From assembly GCF_022919835.1 (NCBI RefSeq), contig NZ_CP095074.1, positions 558,001-622,000 of the forward strand: DNA of 64,000 bases, in the 5' to 3' direction. This document shows, piece by piece, positions 1,916-42,890 of this stretch. Origin of the DNA: Halobacillus shinanisalinarum. GTDB lineage: Bacteria; Bacillota; Bacilli; Bacillales; Halobacillaceae. Both the position numbers and the translations under genes were made by a program. Position 1 is the first letter of the stretch. Every line of letters begins with the position of its first letter. Below the pieces are notes generated by a model. The model searched no databases. It was not told the origin of the DNA and saw only the letters and a list, made by a program, of their open reading frames with translations.

Positions 1916-3496
1916 TTACTTCTTTGGAACTTGACAGATTTCGGGTAACGATGAGGACCAGGGAAGAACCTTTTCCCAAGCCTCTGAATCGTCAAGATCC
2001 ATCTGAGGAAGTTGTTCGAATAAATACGTAAGATAGTAGAGAGGGTTCAAGCCGTTGGCTTTCGCCGTTTCTACAACACTATAAATGATGGCGCTTGATT
2101 CAGCCCCTTTCAGGCTATTTGAAAACAGCCAGTTCTTGCGGCCGATCACGAATGGTTTGATGAATCGTTCAGCTCGATTGTTATCGATATCTACCTGTCC
2201 ACCTTGCAGGTAGACGACCAGTTGATCCCATTGATTCAAACAGTATGTGATGGCTTCCCCTAACTTGCTCTTCGGCAGAACTTTGGCTTTATGATTCTTC
2301 AGCCACTCCAAAAAGTCCTCCAATATCGGTTTACTGTTCTCTTTCCGATACTCCAGGCGTTCTTCGTCTGTCCACGTTTTGCTTTTCTTCTCGATATCAT
2401 ACAATCGCTGAATCTTCTGAAGCGCCTCCCTGGCGACACTATTTACCAATGTCGAAGAAGATGGGGCTGCTTTCAGAGCTTCGTCGAATTTTCGGCGGGT
2501 GTGAGCCCAACAGCCCATCAGCTTTACGCCGTCCACTTTATGATAGCCTCCATACCCGTCGGTTTGGAGGAAGCCGGAAAACGATGTAAGGAATCGCTTC
2601 GCGTGCTTACCAGCTCGCGTACGCTGATAATCATACAGAACGATGGGCGGTCCGTTGCGACCGGTACAGTACAGCCACATATAGGACTTAGACTCAGCTG
2701 CCTTTCCATCTTCCCGCAACACCTGAAGAGGTGTCTCATCCGCATGCACCGATGAATGCTTCACCATGGCTTGATGAAGCTGGTCAAACAAAGGCTTCAA
2801 CCAGTGGTGCGCTGCGTGGATCATCCAGTTGGCGATGGTGGCTCTGGATAAAGGGATTCCCATACGTTCCAACTGCTTTTCCTGACGATAGAGAGGCAAC
2901 GCCTCGACATATTTCTGACTCATGAAAAATGCCAAACTTGAAGGGGATGCGAGACTTTTCGGAAGAACAGGGTTTGGCATAGGAGCTGTGTGAATAGGGG
3001 TTTCTACCCCGTGTTGTTCACATTGCCGGCAACTGTATACATGGCGCACGTGTTTTTTCACTTTCACCTGCGCGGGAATCACAATTAATTCACGACGCTC
3101 TTCCGTACTCATTTGATGAATGTCATGACCACATGACGAACAAGCCTGATCCTCGAGGTGGTATTCCACCGTTTCTGTAGGAAGGCTTTTCATCATCTCA
3201 TCACGCTGCCCTTTTCGTTTTTTCCGTTTATATTCAATCGTTTCGATGGTCGGCTCCTCTTCCTTCGAATTGGAAGTGACTTCTGCCTCATCGAAAAGGG
3301 AAATCTGATCAGGGTTCATCTTTTCACTCGAAGCACCGAAACGCTTCTGCTGGCTCAATTTGAATTGTTCTTCATACCATTCTACCTTGGCTGCCAGTTT
3401 GGCGTTTTCATCTTCGAGTGATAGACAACGTTTTTCCAGTGATTCCATTGTCTTTGGGATCTTCGTCTTTGTGTCCATAAAAAAAGGATTCGACAT
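1916..3496 (-). CDS. tnpC: IS66 transposase TnpC
   Basis: DDE transposase of the element, 526 residues from the ATG at 3496 (an upstream ATG at 3589 lies within tnpB). An N-terminal coiled coil (LEKRCLSLEDENAKLAAKVE) is followed by a zinc finger with CSSCGHD and CRQCEQHG. The catalytic domain shows HADETPLQVL, LQTDGYGGYHKV and NNRAERFIKPFVIGRKNW, holding the conserved acidic residues. The C-terminal YYLTYLFEQLP is typical of IS66. It begins about 20 bases after the tnpB stop with GAAGGAA upstream. Confidence 0.95.
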   Translation of the reverse strand: MSNPFFMDTKTKIPKTMESLEKRCLSLEDENAKLAAKVEWYEEQFKLSQQKRFGASSEKMNPDQISLFDEAEVTSNSKEEEPTIETIEYKRKKRKGQRDEMMKSLPTETVEYHLEDQACSSCGHDIHQMSTEERRELIVIPAQVKVKKHVRHVYSCRQCEQHGVETPIHTAPMPNPVLPKSLASPSSLAFFMSQKYVEALPLYRQEKQLERMGIPLSRATIANWMIHAAHHWLKPLFDQLHQAMVKHSSVHADETPLQVLREDGKAAESKSYMWLYCTGRNGPPIVLYDYQRTRAGKHAKRFLTSFSGFLQTDGYGGYHKVDGVKLMGCWAHTRRKFDEALKAAPSSSTLVNSVAREALQKIQRLYDIEKKSKTWTDEERLEYRKENSKPILEDFLEWLKNHKAKVLPKSKLGEAITYCLNQWDQLVVYLQGGQVDIDNNRAERFIKPFVIGRKNWLFSNSLKGAESSAIIYSVVETAKANGLNPLYYLTYLFEQLPQMDLDDSEAWEKVLPWSSSLPEICQVPKK

Positions 3497-3516
3497 AAAT
3501 AGACGAATTCCTTCTT

Positions 3517-3873
3517 TTAAATCAATGTTCTTGCGTGAACAGCCCGATGGGCTCCTCGCTGGTGAAGAGGCAGCCCGTCCATCAGCCACCGGAATTGACG
3601 GCGACTGACAGGCATGACGGAAGCGTCATCGTCTGAAGGCCAATGAAACGTTCCTTTTTCCAGGCGACGATAATGAAGCCAGAATCCGTTGTGATCCCAC
3701 TGGAGAATTTTCACTTTATCCCGTTTTCGGTTACAGAAGACAAACAGACAGGGAGAAAAGGGATCCAACTCGAACGCTTCCTGGACTAGGATCGACAAAC
3801 CGTCAATCGACTTTCGCAAGTCTGTACTGCCCTGGGCGAGGTAAACCTTCTCCACGTGCGCCACGTTCAACAT
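3517..3873 (-). CDS. tnpB: IS66 accessory protein TnpB
   Basis: The 118-residue IS66 Orf2 protein. It has the family core VYLAQGSTDLRKSIDGL, LFVFCNRKRDKVKILQWDHNGFWLHYRRLEKG and a basic tail. Its ATG overlaps the tnpA stop (ATGTTGA), indicating translational coupling. TnpB is needed for transposition of IS66 elements; its biochemical role is not settled. Confidence 0.95.
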   Translation of the reverse strand: MLNVAHVEKVYLAQGSTDLRKSIDGLSILVQEAFELDPFSPCLFVFCNRKRDKVKILQWDHNGFWLHYRRLEKGTFHWPSDDDASVMPVSRRQFRWLMDGLPLHQRGAHRAVHARTLI

Positions 3874-4169
3874 ACAGCCTGGACTACTTTCAACACTTTG
3901 GCCAAGTGTTCCGGACAGACATCTTCGGATGTTTCAATCGTCGCTTTTCCGATGGAAATATGTACAGATGGTTGCGAAGACTCTTCTTCAACTTCTACAG
4001 CCACCCAGGAAGGCGCCGGCTCAGCTGATACTTGAATCTTCCTTTTCCAATAGCGAAAGGTATGAATATTTATATGATGGTTGTTACACCATTCTTTGGC
4101 CGTCTGACCGGATTCATGGAAATGAATCAGCCGATCTTCCCAAAGAGCTTGTTTATCCGTTTGGCTCAT
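3867..4169 (-). CDS. tnpA: IS66 accessory protein TnpA
   Basis: IS66 Orf1, 100 residues from the ATG at 4169 preceded by TAGGAGG. The N-terminal part (WEDRLIHFHESGQTAKEWCN ... TFRYWKRKI) is a helix-turn-helix of the type seen in IS66 TnpA. The more upstream ATG at 4214 is read from the inverted repeat side and lacks a ribosome site. Confidence 0.92.
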   Translation of the reverse strand: MSQTDKQALWEDRLIHFHESGQTAKEWCNNHHINIHTFRYWKRKIQVSAEPAPSWVAVEVEEESSQPSVHISIGKATIETSEDVCPEHLAKVLKVVQAVC

Positions 4170-4251
4170 CAGCAATCCTCCTAAGAAATTCTGACTGTAG
4201 TATCTCACAGCCATGAGGAGGATTAGAAGGTGGGCATTATTTTCCGCTTAC

Positions 4252-8510: not shown

Positions 8511-10643
8511 TTATTTCTTTGTTTTAAGGAGCCTTAACCCATTCAAGGTGACTAAAAGTGTTGCTCCCATATCTGCCAGAATAGCAATCCATAAAGTTAG
8601 CCATCCCGGAATGATTAGCAATAAGGCCACAGCCTTTACAATTAGTGAGAAACTAATGTTTTGTTTGATGATTTGCAGTGCCTTTCGGCTTAACTTGACG
8701 GTAAACGGTAGTTTATCCAGGTCATCAGCCATAAGAGCAATATCTGCTGTCTCAAGAGCCGTATCAGTTCCAGCCCCTCCCATGGCAATGCCTAAGTCGG
8801 CTGTAGCTAGTGCGGGCGCATCATTAACGCCATCACCAATCATGGCCACCTTATGCTGTTCCTTTAATTGCTTAATCGCATTCAGCTTATCTTCAGGAAG
8901 CAGCTCTGCTTTTACCTTGCTTATGCCAAGTTGTTTTCCAATCGCCAGAGCCGTATTTTCGTTATCTCCGGTAAGCATGATGGTTTCTTTGATCCCGAGT
9001 TTATGCAGTTTCTGAATAATTTCCTGACTACTTCCCCGAACCGGATCAGCTACAGCAATGAGTAAGAGAATCTTTTCCTTCGTTCCAAGGCCCATTACGG
9101 TTTTGCCTTGTTTTTGTAGCGTTTCAATCTGAGATGATACCTCACTATCTAGACCCGATGGTAACAATTCGTTAAAGAGTTTCGGACTGCCGACATAGTA
9201 GGTCGCGTCGTTGAGTTTGGCTTGCACACCTTTCCCGGTTAAAGAGTGAAATTCATCGATCGACCAAGAATTTATATCTAATTGCTCATCTTCGGCTTTT
9301 TGAACGATGGCTGCGGCTAACGGGTGTTGGGAGCCTTTTTCAATGGCCGCCGCAACGCCCAGAAGATCACGGTTTTTTTCTTCTTCTAAATAAACCAGAT
9401 CGGTTACTTCTGGAACCCCTTTGGTCAACGTACCAGTTTTGTCAAAGGCAATCGCAGATAGTGCACCTGCTTCTTCAAGATACACACCGCCTTTAATGAG
9501 CACGCCATTTCGGGCAGAATTCCCAATTGCAGTGACGATTGATACGGGGGTTGAAATCACCAATGCACAAGGACAACCGACAACTAAAACCGCAAGCCCG
9601 GTATAAATCCATTCGCTCCATCCCCAGTTAAGGAAAAGAGGAGGGATAATGGCAATCAATAAGGCTATGACGATGACCGCCGGCGTATAATATTTTGCAA
9701 AACGATCGACAAAGGCTTGAGAAGGCGCACGTTCAGCTTGGGCTTCTTCAACCATATGAATAATTTTAGCAATGGTCGTGTCTTCCACCCGTTTCGTGAC
9801 AAGGACTTCCAACAACCCTTCTTCGTTTAAGGTCCCGGCAAAGACTTCGTCATCCTTTGATTTGGAAACCGGAATCGATTCACCAGTGATAGCTGCCTGA
9901 TTGATGGTTGATGCTCCTTTGACAACCAAACCGTCCATGGCCAACTTTTGTCCGGGTTTGACGATCATAATGTCGTCAATATGAATATCATCGACGGATA
10001 TAGTCATTTCTTCATTCCCTCGGCGAATGAGAGCTTCTTTGGGTGCGATGTCCATTAGGTCACGAATGGAGTTACGAGCTTTATCCATGGAATAAGACTC
10101 AAGTGCTTCACTGATCGCAAACAGCAATACGACAATCGCACCTTCACTCCATTCCCCAATCACAGCAGCACCAATGATTGCTACAGTCATCAAAGTGTTC
10201 ATATCAAATCTGAAACGTACTAAATTGCGAAGTCCTTTGATAAATAAACTATAACCCCCGATTACCATAGCTGAACCGTATAAGAGAATGGGTACCACAT
10301 TTTCTTCCGTATTAAGACTCAGCAACCATCCTACTAGCACCAACACACTTGCCAAGGCAATTTGAATCATCGCTTTATTTTTCCAAAATGGAACCTTCTC
10401 GTCATCGACTTGTTCATTTTCATGATAAATTTTGTATCCCTCAAAGGATCCTGCCTTTTCTACCTCTTCCAAGGAGGCCTCTCCGTAAACAGCGATTTTG
10501 GAAGCACCAAAATTCACTTTGGCATCTTGTACGCCCGGCAAATCTTTGACATTCTGCTCAAACTGAGCAGCGCAATCTGCTCAGGTAAAACCCTGAACAC
10601 GGAAATTCGTTTTTGGTTCTGCCATTTGTAAACTGTCAGCCAT
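8511..10643 (-). CDS. cadA: CadA Cd/Zn/Pb P1B-ATPase, candidate selenoprotein (in-frame UGA at codon 21)
   Basis: P1B-type ATPase that exports Cd(II), Zn(II) or Pb(II). From the ATG at 10643, which overlaps the cadC stop by 8 bases, the frame has 710 codons: an N-terminal heavy-metal-associated domain, then membrane helices with CPC (about 357-359), the DKTGTLTKG phosphorylation site (about 401) and [10 protein letters not shown]. Codon 21 (10583-10581) is TGA, exactly where the first Cys of GFTCADC belongs, giving GFT-UGA-ADC. The bases after it form CTGCTCA-GTT-TGAGCAG at bacterial selenocysteine-element distance. Either the product has selenocysteine at this metal site, or the domain is lost to a nonsense mutation and translation restarts at TTG codon 35. 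All core motifs are intact. Confidence 0.9.
10554..10583 (-). promoter_or_regulatory. Candidate bacterial SECIS element in cadA
   Basis: On the mRNA, UGA (10583-10581) is followed after 10 bases by a perfect 7-bp stem CUGCUCA/UGAGCAG with a GUU loop (10570-10554). The loop starts 17 bases after the UGA and with a G, matching the published bacterial SECIS rules. A competing stem that includes the UGA itself (CTGAGCAG/CTGCTCAG) is also possible. The redoxin at 39915 has the same geometry. Confidence 0.6.
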
Positions 10644-30608: not shown

Positions 30609-31130
30609 TTATTTCAACGGTGTCTTTCTATACTTGTTTACTGTTTCAACCACAAATTCCGTCGTCATGGGCCCAACATGATGGTAACGGATCACTCCTT
30701 TCTCATCGATGAAAAAGGTTTCGGGTTGCCCTCTGACCCCATACGGCTTCGCCATAGAGTCGTTATAATCTAGCAGATAAGTTGACGTAGAATTAAACTC
30801 TTCAATATGTTCTTGGACGCTTACCTTCGGTTCTGCACGATCGAGGAACAACAATTTTGCCTGATCTCCGTACTGTTCCTCAAAATCTTGCAGTTCCGGT
30901 GCTTCCTCTCTACAAGGTGGACACCAGGATGCAAAAAAATTCAAAACGACAAACTGCCCTTGATAATCCGATAAGCTAACCATATTTCCATCCATATCTT
31001 CCAGAGTAAAATCAGGTGCAGGGTCCCCTATCTCAGCCGCAGTTGAGTTCTGACCTAAATTAATTGCTACATAAGTAAACCCCGCTAAAATGGCGATAAG
31101 AGAAGTGATCCGTATAATCTTCCTAAGCAT
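30609..31130 (-). CDS. resA: ResA/CcmG-type thioredoxin-like apocytochrome reductase
   Basis: 173 residues with an N-terminal membrane anchor and an outside TlpA-like thioredoxin fold: PAPDFTLEDMDGNMVSLSDY, active site FFASWCPPCREEAPEL (CPPC) and cis-Pro loop RGQPETFFIDEKG. It reduces the CxxCH disulfide of apocytochrome c before heme attachment. In System I clusters this position is CcmG; by sequence it resembles ResA equally. Confidence 0.92.
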   Translation of the reverse strand: MLRKIIRITSLIAILAGFTYVAINLGQNSTAAEIGDPAPDFTLEDMDGNMVSLSDYQGQFVVLNFFASWCPPCREEAPELQDFEEQYGDQAKLLFLDRAEPKVSVQEHIEEFNSTSTYLLDYNDSMAKPYGVRGQPETFFIDEKGVIRYHHVGPMTTEFVVETVNKYRKTPLK

Positions 31131-38050: not shown

Positions 38051-38892
38051 CTACCGTTCAACAGGCACGCCGACCATACTGCCCCACTCTGTCCATGAAC
38101 CATCGTAATTACGGACATTTCTATAGCCGAGTAATTCGTGCAACACGAACCATGTATGTGCAGACCGTTCTCCAATACGACAATAAGTGATGACTTCTTT
38201 ATCAGGGGTTACACCTTTATCAGCATAGATATCTCTCAATTCCTCCGTTGATTTGAAAGTACCATCATCGTTTGTTGCCGTCTTCCAAGGAATGTTAACC
38301 GCACCAGGAATATGGCCACCGCGTTGTGCGGTTTCCGTCATACCCGGGGAGCGATGATCTCACCTGTAAACTCTTGAGGGCTTCGAACGTCGATAAATGC
38401 TGTTGCACTCTTGAGTGCACCAACTACGTCTGGACGTAGCGCGCGAATGGACGGATGAACCTCTTTTGGTAACGGATAGTTAACTCCTTCAACACTGAAA
38501 TTTTCCTCTGTATAGGAGCGTCCTTCCTTTTCCCATTTTACGCGCCCACCATTAATAAGCTTCACCTTTTCGTGACCAAACATCTTCAACTGCCAATAAG
38601 CAAACGCAGCGAACCAGTTATTGTTGTCCCCGTATAGCACAATGAGTGTGTCAGGTGTAATACCCGACTGCTCGAGCAATTCCTTCATTTGGTCTTGATC
38701 TAAAATGTCACGGCGAATCTGATCGTTCAACTGTGTCGACCAATTCCAGGCAATCGCCCCTTCGATGTGGCCGGACTCATAAGCCCTATTGTTTACATCT
38801 ACTTCAACAAGCTGTACATTTGAATCACTTTTGTGATCATCCGCCCACTGCGTTGAAACAAGAGTTTCGTTACATCTCTCCATACGTCTCAT
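38051..38892 (-). pseudogene. Thiosulfate/mercaptopyruvate sulfurtransferase, one-base frameshift
   Basis: Two-domain rhodanese of about 280 residues split into two frames. The first frame: [59 protein letters not shown]. The second: [20 protein letters not shown] and the active-site loop [15 protein letters not shown] with catalytic Cys. The family sequence [14 protein letters not shown] would be restored by one extra C in the CCCCGGG stretch at 38343-38349. Transfers sulfane sulfur to thiol or cyanide acceptors. Likely functional if the indel is a sequence error. Confidence 0.82.
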
Positions 38893-39120: not shown

Positions 39121-39924
39121 TCAATTCGTCTTAACAGAGGCTTGCTTTCCTTTAGACATGCTAAGGTCACGGACCCACTTCCAAAGGAACTGTCCTAAAC
39201 ATATGATAGCTAAACTAATGAACAAAGCGCTATGGATGTTCAGGTGGATGATGACCTGAGAAGTCAAAGCGATAGAAGATCCAAAGTAGATCTGTTTCTT
39301 TACATCCTTTGGGGATGTCTTTGGATCAGTGATCATGTTAAATGTAAAAACAAATAATCCGGCCCACATAAAAGAGCTAAAACTTGCATTCAAAGCATCA
39401 GTCCAAATTATGTGGCGTATCCACTGGATTCCCACAAAGCTAAAAAAGAACGATAATACGAGTGGTAAACGGTGGACCTTATGAACCAAATACAGTCCTC
39501 CTAAAGACATCACAGCAAGAATCCAAAGATAGAATCCCCATTGGACAGGGTCTGTGGAGGTTGTAAGTGGAAACAGAACGACAATCATCGAAATTCCGAT
39601 GTTGGAAGGGTTAAAAATATGACTCTCCCGGTACCGAAGCAAATGTTTGAAGCCGATGGCCACAAGCGAAGCCATTATAAACGGAATAACCGTATCCGCC
39701 CGTAACACCAAAACGATACCAAGACTGGTGATTACCGCACTGTGCGGCCACATGACCGTTCCATTTTTCAAATATACAAAAAACCATTCCAACAAGATAC
39801 ATACAGTTAGCGTCACAACCATTTGTATAACTGTGAATTGAAGTTGCAATAACATTTTTCCGGTTAACGCATACGTACCAAGGAGCATAATCTGCATGAT
39901 ACGCGGGTCTCGAATCACTCCCAT
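39121..39924 (-). CDS. RnfD/NqrB-like membrane redox protein
   Basis: 267 residues with about eight helices. GFKHLLRYRESHIFNPSNIG and FVFTFNMITDPKTSPKDVKK are the paired motifs of the NqrB/RnfD/RnfE family; the Asp-Pro-Lys-Thr-Ser-Pro motif is near the flavin attachment region in that family. No other rnf or nqr gene is nearby. Its ATG overlaps the stop of the UGA-containing redoxin by 10 bases, so the two are co-translated. It could supply electrons to the redoxin across the membrane (inference). Confidence 0.75.
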   Translation of the reverse strand: MGVIRDPRIMQIMLLGTYALTGKMLLQLQFTVIQMVVTLTVCILLEWFFVYLKNGTVMWPHSAVITSLGIVLVLRADTVIPFIMASLVAIGFKHLLRYRESHIFNPSNIGISMIVVLFPLTTSTDPVQWGFYLWILAVMSLGGLYLVHKVHRLPLVLSFFFSFVGIQWIRHIIWTDALNASFSSFMWAGLFVFTFNMITDPKTSPKDVKKQIYFGSSIALTSQVIIHLNIHSALFISLAIICLGQFLWKWVRDLSMSKGKQASVKTN

Positions 39925-40514
39925 ACCTTTTGTAACTCCTCATTAACCGATTCGATAGGGACATACATTTCTTGTGGAGAAATTTCATACCAACGTACAA
40001 TCCCTTCCTGATCGATGACAAAAATCGAGTGGGTATCTACCGGACCCATGTCCATCCCACCAGGCACATCCGTCACACCATATGGTTTCCCTACCCTCTG
40101 GTTCGGATCATACAATATAGGGACTTGAATGTTATACTTTTGTACAACCTGTTTAGACATCCTAAGGGGATCTGTAGTGATGGCTAGGATTTTCGTATTG
40201 TGCTTCGCATATTCTTCAACTTTTTCATTCAGCCCAACGAGCTGATCCACACAGGCTTGTCAGCCATTTCCTTCATAAAAGTATATGACCACGTTTTTTC
40301 CTTTGTAATCTGCTAAGGAGATGGGTCCCTGGGTAGATTCCAAAGTAAAATTAGGGGCTTTGGTTCCTACCGGAACCCCGGCTTCATTGGTATTAGTGAT
40401 TTGTTTCCCCTGGATGAATCCTAAAACTGTTAGAATCAATACTAAGCCGACAATACCGGATAACCAGAGCGTCCAGCTTTTCCCTTGTCCTTTTTGATTT
40501 TTATTGTGCTTCAT
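39915..40514 (-). CDS. Membrane-anchored redoxin/peroxiredoxin, candidate selenoprotein (UGA at codon 85)
   Basis: 199 codons with one in-frame UGA. N-terminal anchor (LWLSGIVGLVLILTVLGFI), then the AhpC/TSA fold: GTKAPNFTLESTQGPISLAD, NVVIYFYEGNG, UGA at 40262-40260, QAC, then VDQLVGLNEK and ILAITTDPLRMSKQVVQ, VPILYDPNQRVGKPYGV and HSIFVIDQEGIVRWYEI. The UGA is at the peroxidatic Cys, leaving U-x-x-C as in the known selenoperoxiredoxin PrxU. The downstream half has no ATG of its own and no frame change. A stem with a GUU loop follows the UGA. If simply a nonsense codon, the protein would lack its active site. Confidence 0.88.
40229..40262 (-). promoter_or_regulatory. Candidate bacterial SECIS element in the redoxin gene
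   Basis: UGA (40262-40260) is followed after 14 bases by UCAGCUC-GUU-GGGCUGA (40245-40229): seven pairs (one G-U) and a three-base loop starting with G, 21 bases after the UGA. Same stem length and identical loop as the cadA element. Confidence 0.6.
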
Positions 40515-42063: not shown

Positions 42064-42890
42064 TCACCCTTGTACTCCGTAATAAAGAAGTAAGGAAAAA
42101 ACCATAATGGATATCACAAATAATCCAGTTTTGATATATTCACTTTTTTTAATTGGATTATCCTTATCGACTGATTCACTTCCCTTACGGTATCTGATAA
42201 GGAAAATGGCAACAGTAATACCTATTAAACTCATGATATGACTTACACTAAAAGGACCAATAACCATAGGGTTTATTCTAGCAAATTCCACGATACCACG
42301 AATAGTCATATATCCAATCAGATAATGCAAGAAGACCTGACCATTATAGGAAGTCACTTTCAATCGTAACCATAAATAACCGAACAGGAGGTAGTCTAAT
42401 AAAAACTCATACGCTTGAGCGGGATGCAACAGTTCCCCATTATCTCCATCCCCCAAGGAAGAGTACTAGAAATTGGACCGCCAAATACATCACACCCAAT
42501 CCTACTTATACCTTGCGCCAAAATTAACGATGGTGCAACGAGATCCAGTGTTCTCCAGATTGGCAACTTATGACGCTTTAATAATAAATAACCGACCAAT
42601 AATCCACCTATAATCCCACCGTGAATGGATAGTCCGCCATTTTGGATAAAAAATACTTGTATAGGGTTGACCAAATAATATGAAGGATTATACACGACTA
42701 TATAAACAGTCCGTGCTCCTATGATGCCACCTATTAATGAATACAGAACAATGTCCGTTAGTAAGTTGTGATTTAAATTTCTTCGTTTGGCTTCCCTTAT
42801 AAATAATAAAAGGCCTACCAACGCACCAAGGGCTATCATCAAACCAAAAAAGTGGATCGTAATAGGACCAAAACTAAATAGGGGTTTCAT
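42064..42890 (-). pseudogene. lgt: Prolipoprotein diacylglyceryl transferase Lgt, one-base frameshift
   Basis: Lgt paralogue of about 275 residues in two frames. The first: MKPLFSFGPITIHFFGLMIA, IIGARTVYIVVYNPSYYLVN, FIQNGGLSIHGGIIGGLLVG, SRIGCDVFGGPISSTLPWG. The second: DGDNGELLHPAQAYEFLLDY and TIRGIVEFARINP. They join if one base is removed from the C5 run at 42450-42454. Lgt adds the diacylglyceryl group to lipobox Cys. The first frame continues out of register as MEIMGNCCIPLK, confirming the shift. A second lgt in a metal region may serve local lipoproteins. Confidence 0.83.

Follow-up and report, generated by a model that had tools for sequence, protein, structure and literature searches.

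A redoxin gene of Halobacillus shinanisalinarum contains an in-frame UGA codon, which raises the question whether this codon is read as selenocysteine (Sec) or marks a dying gene. The gene lies in a stretch of 64,000 nucleotides, referred to here as the window, which comprises bases 558001-622000 of the single-contig 4.887-Mb genome. It occupies positions 39915..40514 of the minus strand, limits that agree with those given in an earlier note on this DNA, where the strand was left unstated. Starting with ATG at 40514 and ending with a natural stop at 39917..39915, it has 199 codons plus stop and a single in-frame UGA at codon 85 (40260..40262, minus strand) in the context FYEGNG-UGA-QAC. Translation with UGA as U gave a protein of 199 residues with U85, which matched the Pfam families AhpC-TSA (102.4 bits) and Redoxin (78.4 bits). 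The UGA and its uninterrupted frame, as previously described, were reproduced, and there was no further stop. The accompanying statement that no internal start follows was wrong, as a GTG at codon 89 opens a possible open reading frame (ORF) of 111 aa (40250..39915). The gene very probably encodes a selenoprotein, namely a Prx-like UxxC redoxin with one N-terminal membrane helix, in which Sec would be inserted at codon 85 by the Sec machinery of the genome with the help of a hairpin. Selenocysteine is strongly supported because the machinery genes, an exchange of Sec and Cys among homologues, selection after the UGA and a hairpin common to three UGA genes were all found.

The conservation of the UGA codon was analyzed in 12 sequences that cover the site. 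Column 85 holds UGA in three of them (the window gene, the sister genome G024 and Aquibacillus salsiterrae) and Cys in the other nine (Virgibacillus oceani, a Metabacillus plasmid, and the sequences P0002-P0006, P0008 and P0014), and the comparison with Cys orthologues proposed in the earlier note thus showed an exchange of Sec and Cys. The window protein is 90% identical to that of G024 and 63% identical to that of A. salsiterrae (L024). Of the 199 codons, 42 differ between the window gene and G024, and the 28-codon segment that surrounds the UGA (-13 to +14) is unchanged. Purifying selection acts on the segment downstream of the UGA, where the ratio of nonsynonymous to synonymous substitution rates (dN/dS) against G024 was 0.149, compared to 0.214 upstream. 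Two metagenome pieces, P0010 (84 aa, ending in GNG) and P0007 (111 aa, starting with VDQL), both derive from a 13,463-base contig, taken as one and the same, which seems to carry another UGA copy, broken in two at the corresponding codon. A scan of plasmids gave one redoxin record, the Metabacillus Cys copy, and a scan of viral contigs no redoxin relative. Family-genome matches at 28-35% identity (25 of 27 rows) were set aside as paralogues.

The search of the genome for Sec machinery that had been suggested recovered tRNA-Sec, selA and selD whole, whereas selB is interrupted by a frame break. The tRNA-Sec scored 62.5 bits, above cut-off, and was also found by ARAGORN with anticodon tca. SelA (578.8 bits) is encoded in a single frame, SelD (419.5 bits) has a UGA of its own at GG-U-GCK, and the three genes lie within about 6.2 kb. 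In G024, V. oceani and A. salsiterrae, selB is present in one frame, and a tRNA-Sec was found within the 1.5-kb flank of each.

The stem reported previously to follow the UGA of the redoxin gene, UCAGCUC-GUU-GGGCUGA, is present at 40229..40245 (minus strand) according to folding and a hairpin scan. This hairpin, resembling a selenocysteine insertion sequence (SECIS), has a 7-bp stem and a GUU loop that begins at base 22 after the UGA, corresponding to a spacing of 21 nt, and its energy is -7.7 kcal/mol alone and -9.5 kcal/mol for 45 nt. The bacterial SECIS model has a loop of 3-9 nt, an upper stem of 4-16 bp, a G within the first two loop bases, a spacing of 16-37 nt and a minimum free energy of at most -7.5 kcal/mol, and the redoxin hairpin falls within all of these ranges (PMC13188914). 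Within +14..+38, a GUU-loop hairpin with a stem of 7 bp or longer followed just 9 of 12,147 background codons (46 window ORFs of at least 150 aa), and therefore the redoxin hairpin is more than chance would give; after the 63 Cys codons, this form was not found. Across the six frames of the window, 30 TGAs are flanked by open frame (20 codons upstream and 60 downstream), and a GUU hairpin of at least 6 bp followed two of these, in the redoxin gene and in a P-type ATPase gene. An Rfam scan of the window gave no match above gathering scores.

The ATPase gene (8511..10643, minus strand), which we took to be the second UGA gene meant in the earlier note, indeed has the same stem length and loop. 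It encodes a heavy-metal (Cd/Zn-type) P-type ATPase with an N-terminal HMA domain (TIGR01525, 624.8 bits against a cut-off of 346.25). Its UGA, codon 21 (10581..10583, minus strand), takes the place of the first Cys in the CxxC motif of the HMA domain (GFT-U-ADC), and the hairpin CUGCUCA-GUU-UGAGCAG (10554..10570, minus strand) has a 7-bp stem and 17 nt between UGA and loop. After the UGA, dN/dS was 0.131 against G024 and 0.147 against a plasmid copy; the upstream segment of 20 codons is too short for a judgement. In the annotation of the H. amylolyticus plasmid NZ_CP095076.1, the ATPase coding sequence already continues through the UGA (WP_305853294.1). Table 1 of PMC13188914 includes Cation-transporting ATPase (E1-E2 family) with TIGR01525 and UxxC, and we saw no essential difference in the window ATPase. 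A third case is selD (L017:9081, genome C1 about 2294080), a UGA gene with an 8-bp stem and GUU loop. One hairpin form is thus common to redoxin (7 bp, +22), ATPase (7 bp, +18) and selD (8 bp, +34). The two window genes served to define this form, and selD therefore counts as an independent case.

The distribution of these genes was compared in 44 family genomes by raw counts uncorrected for kinship. The selA gene is present in nine of them. The UGA redoxin occurs in G000 and G024, both selA-positive, and the UGA ATPase in five genomes (G000, G024, G039, G042, G043), all with selA. Close ATPase orthologues without UGA were found in G027, which has selA, and in G001, G026, G030, G035 and G038, which lack it. 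The place of the ATPase UGA was checked in 11 loci (L096-L106, at least 57% identity) out of 50 match rows, with the G024 plasmid copy seen via L135; this survey leaves out a partial G024 copy (C2:116908), and the remaining rows (48-51% identity) were regarded as different ATPases.

Several observations qualify, or weigh against, the reading of the redoxin gene as a functional selenoprotein gene. When the hairpin was defined more loosely, by a G at loop base 1 or 2, structures at least as stable followed 1.7% (the figure for the redoxin hairpin), 1.2% and 0.6% of 4,000 sampled codons, and 2 of 63 Cys codons. Judged by stability alone, the hairpin signal is weaker. The hairpin of the A. salsiterrae redoxin has 6 bp, a 5-nt loop and -6.4 kcal/mol alone, although the loop still holds GUU and 45 nt fold at -10.6 kcal/mol. 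V. oceani, with its Cys copy, retains a 6-bp stem at this place without GUU, and protein constraint may therefore explain part of the redoxin stem. The 7-bp/GUU hairpin was found in neither of two UGA ATPases of the sister genus g6 (L101, L103), whose best hairpins reach -2.1 and -5.4 kcal/mol; L102 is identical to L101 over 60 bases from the UGA. The redoxin is also rare, as only the window's own gene was found among 397 order genomes (E 1e-30) and among 398 class genomes (E 1e-35), samples that miss some known carriers (G024 was not among the matches). With respect to the machinery, selB scored above cut-off but consists of two overlapping frames in this assembly (L017:5666-7566), which leaves some doubt that this particular strain inserts Sec, and selA of the sister G024 (L133) has a frame break near its C-terminal end.

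On the minus strand of the window, two other genes named by eye are split by frame changes, a rhodanese gene (38892..38051, break about 38340) and lgt (42890..42064, break about 42400); the latter is whole in V. oceani (L023). Such breaks could be taken to favor the view that the redoxin gene is dying, its UGA having arisen by nonsense mutation or sequencing error and its halves being relics. They are, however, frame changes and not in-frame TGAs, and the redoxin gene itself has no other stop or shift. Moreover, the UGA is common to G024, Aquibacillus and seemingly the metagenome contig, homologues have Cys exactly at this codon, the hairpin is present, and the low dN/dS after the UGA argues against decay. 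We consider a dying gene very improbable. Decay in sister strains had been named beforehand as evidence that would speak against Sec, and G024 instead has the UGA at the same codon, with purifying selection after it; the shared UGA, the selection after it and the scarcity of GUU hairpins in the background also uphold the earlier view that a chance nonsense mutation is unlikely.

The split of selB opens the possibility that the redoxin is built for Sec in a strain that cannot insert it and makes only an 84-aa stub. The two frames occur in the sole available assembly. An assembly error is plausible because runs of G surround the break and further genes of the window are split as well; poor consensus at base runs is a fair, though not proven, explanation. 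Together with the intact selB of the three relatives, the whole selA, selD and tRNA-Sec genes and the absence of decay in the UGA genes, this makes a truly broken selB unlikely. That two separate polypeptides are formed, the second from the GTG at codon 89, is the least probable alternative. The 111-aa ORF exists and the gene caller used for the metagenome chose a matching start in P0007, but Cys88 and the first strands would then be separated from the remainder of a single domain, and the Cys homologues are continuous. The selenoprotein reading remains the best explanation of the gene.

A further question is which chemistry a Sec at this position would serve. In an alignment to the solved peroxiredoxin 2ywn, Glu81 fell on the Pro, U85 on the Thr and Cys88 on the peroxidatic Cys of PxxxTxxC, and His162 aligned with an Arg. 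We take the Pro, Thr and Arg of 2ywn to be peroxiredoxin active-site residues; in peroxiredoxins, the active-site Arg stands before a TFxID-like strand. The redoxin has neither the PxxxT/SxxC(U) motif with the peroxidatic residue at its end nor the Arg, which is His162. Glu81, position 85, Cys88 and His162 are invariant in all ten sequences of alignment A1, in which U was written as C. It is Cys88 (40251..40253, minus strand), the second residue of UxxC, that corresponds in position to the peroxidatic Cys of peroxiredoxins. The selenoprotein assignment of the earlier note thus holds, but its placement of Sec at the peroxidatic position was rejected, as the 2ywn alignment puts U85 at the Thr place.

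The proposed likeness to PrxU did not stand either. The NCBIfam PrxU profile scored 56.2 bits, far below its cut-off of 270, and no NCBIfam model reached its cut-off on the redoxin. Published selenium peroxiredoxins are given as TxxU, and UxxC marks two other families of selenoproteins, termed 'Prx-like' and 'redoxin' (PMC13188914, PMC1088965). Table 1 of the former defines the Prx-like thiol:disulfide oxidoreductase by PF00578 and UxxC and the Redoxin family protein by PF08534 and UxxC (PMC13188914). The window redoxin has these domains together with UxxC and, like these families, Cys homologues; it differs by its predicted membrane anchor, a conserved GGMDMGPV-x-TH and an RnfD-like partner gene, the likeness being one of domain and motif only. 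With PrxU-type proteins it shares the general peroxiredoxin fold, but its Sec is at the Thr place and its Pro and Arg places differ. From its sequence, it is therefore best described as a Prx-like UxxC redoxin and not as PrxU. That it is nevertheless a true selenium peroxiredoxin with a peroxidatic Sec, a proposal about activity that is compatible with Sec insertion, is unlikely in view of the altered active-site positions, the low profile score and the TxxU of published enzymes.

Among selenoprotein families, redoxins and metal ATPases with UxxC have been catalogued before, and the novelty lies in the present member with its predicted anchor and the RnfD-like gene paired with it. A 2006 study counted three selenoproteins in Bacillales (PMC1794560), and the deep-Sep main text (PMC12013277) contains no words beginning with 'bacill' or 'redoxin'. 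As far as the open-access literature on Halobacillus selenocysteine and on Bacillaceae or halophile selenoproteins was available, nothing in it was judged related. An anchored redoxin with an RnfD-like partner was not found there, which is weak evidence of absence, as Rnf was barely targeted.

The redoxin also resembles the ResA/CcmG thiol-disulfide oxidoreductases, which likewise have an N-terminal anchor and whose CxxC aligns with U85-x-x-C88 (ResA 4nmu). A CcmG/ResA-like WCPPC paralogue in the window (31130..30609) is 27% identical to the redoxin, with its CxxC aligned in the same way. Proteins of the ResA/TlpA type have a Trp before CxxC and a cis-Pro near the active site. The redoxin differs in having Gly84 instead of Trp before U85 and an 11-residue insertion before the FVID strand. 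BLASTP set its invariant Pro151 against the Pro of the WCPPC paralogue, in a region where this insertion precedes the strand and the structural model is weak (149-159).

A membrane anchor was predicted from the sequence at about residues 13-35 (40410..40478, minus strand), and the AlphaFold2 model has a helix at 13-43 with a block-wise predicted local distance difference test (pLDDT) of about 48-72. As a Lys/Arg-rich start precedes the anchor, the redox domain is probably located outside the membrane. The ribosome would insert Sec at codon 85 using tRNA-Sec, SelA, SelD, SelB and the 7-bp/GUU hairpin, and Sec85-x-x-Cys88 would form a selenol/thiol redox centre. Sec85 may attack a disulfide (or peroxide), Cys88 may resolve the selenenylsulfide, and a partner would re-reduce the centre. 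Thiol-disulfide exchange is somewhat favored as the main activity.

A candidate for such a partnership is the gene of an RnfD/NqrB-like membrane protein (39121..39924, minus strand; Pfam NQR2_RnfD_RnfE, 39.9 bits), which overlaps the end of the redoxin gene. This stand-alone gene overlaps and directly follows the redoxin gene in all five loci (window, G024, V. oceani, A. salsiterrae and the Metabacillus plasmid). In the window, the redoxin is surrounded by genes for CtaG, CcmE, CcmF and the WCPPC paralogue. By eye, it also lies near metal ATPases and ArsR-type regulators. According to names assigned by eye, the A. salsiterrae redoxin directly follows a CtaG-like gene and that of V. oceani is close to mercury-type genes. 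Met154-x-Met156 and His162 are invariant in the redoxin homologues. Speculatively, the two genes could form a selenium-dependent membrane module, in which the membrane protein would exchange electrons with the outer Sec-x-x-Cys centre and Met154-x-Met156 and His162 would help to handle a metal, e.g., copper, in the assembly of cytochrome oxidase or in the detoxification of metals; we regard this as improbable in its entirety. Loop 149-159 of the AlphaFold model has a pLDDT below 50, and therefore no geometry of a metal site is claimed. Near the window start, an IS66-type transposase-like gene set (4214..1916, minus strand) was recognized by eye from its translation, which suggests a mobile region.

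Gene prediction can break genes of this kind in two at the UGA, and the anchored redoxin family may well be under-counted, because 10 of the 14 listed database relatives of its C-terminal part begin after the Sec site, although the length limit of this search (about 61-194 aa) favors pieces and contig ends may explain some. With at least three UGA genes of one hairpin form in one genome, SECIS recognition in Bacillales becomes testable. Two of these genes lie within the 64-kb window, which abounds in genes for metal resistance and cytochrome assembly, and it may be, as a suggestion, that Sec genes travel with such regions. If the redoxin and its RnfD-like neighbour do act as a module, Sec would be used outside the membrane of an aerobic Gram-positive bacterium.
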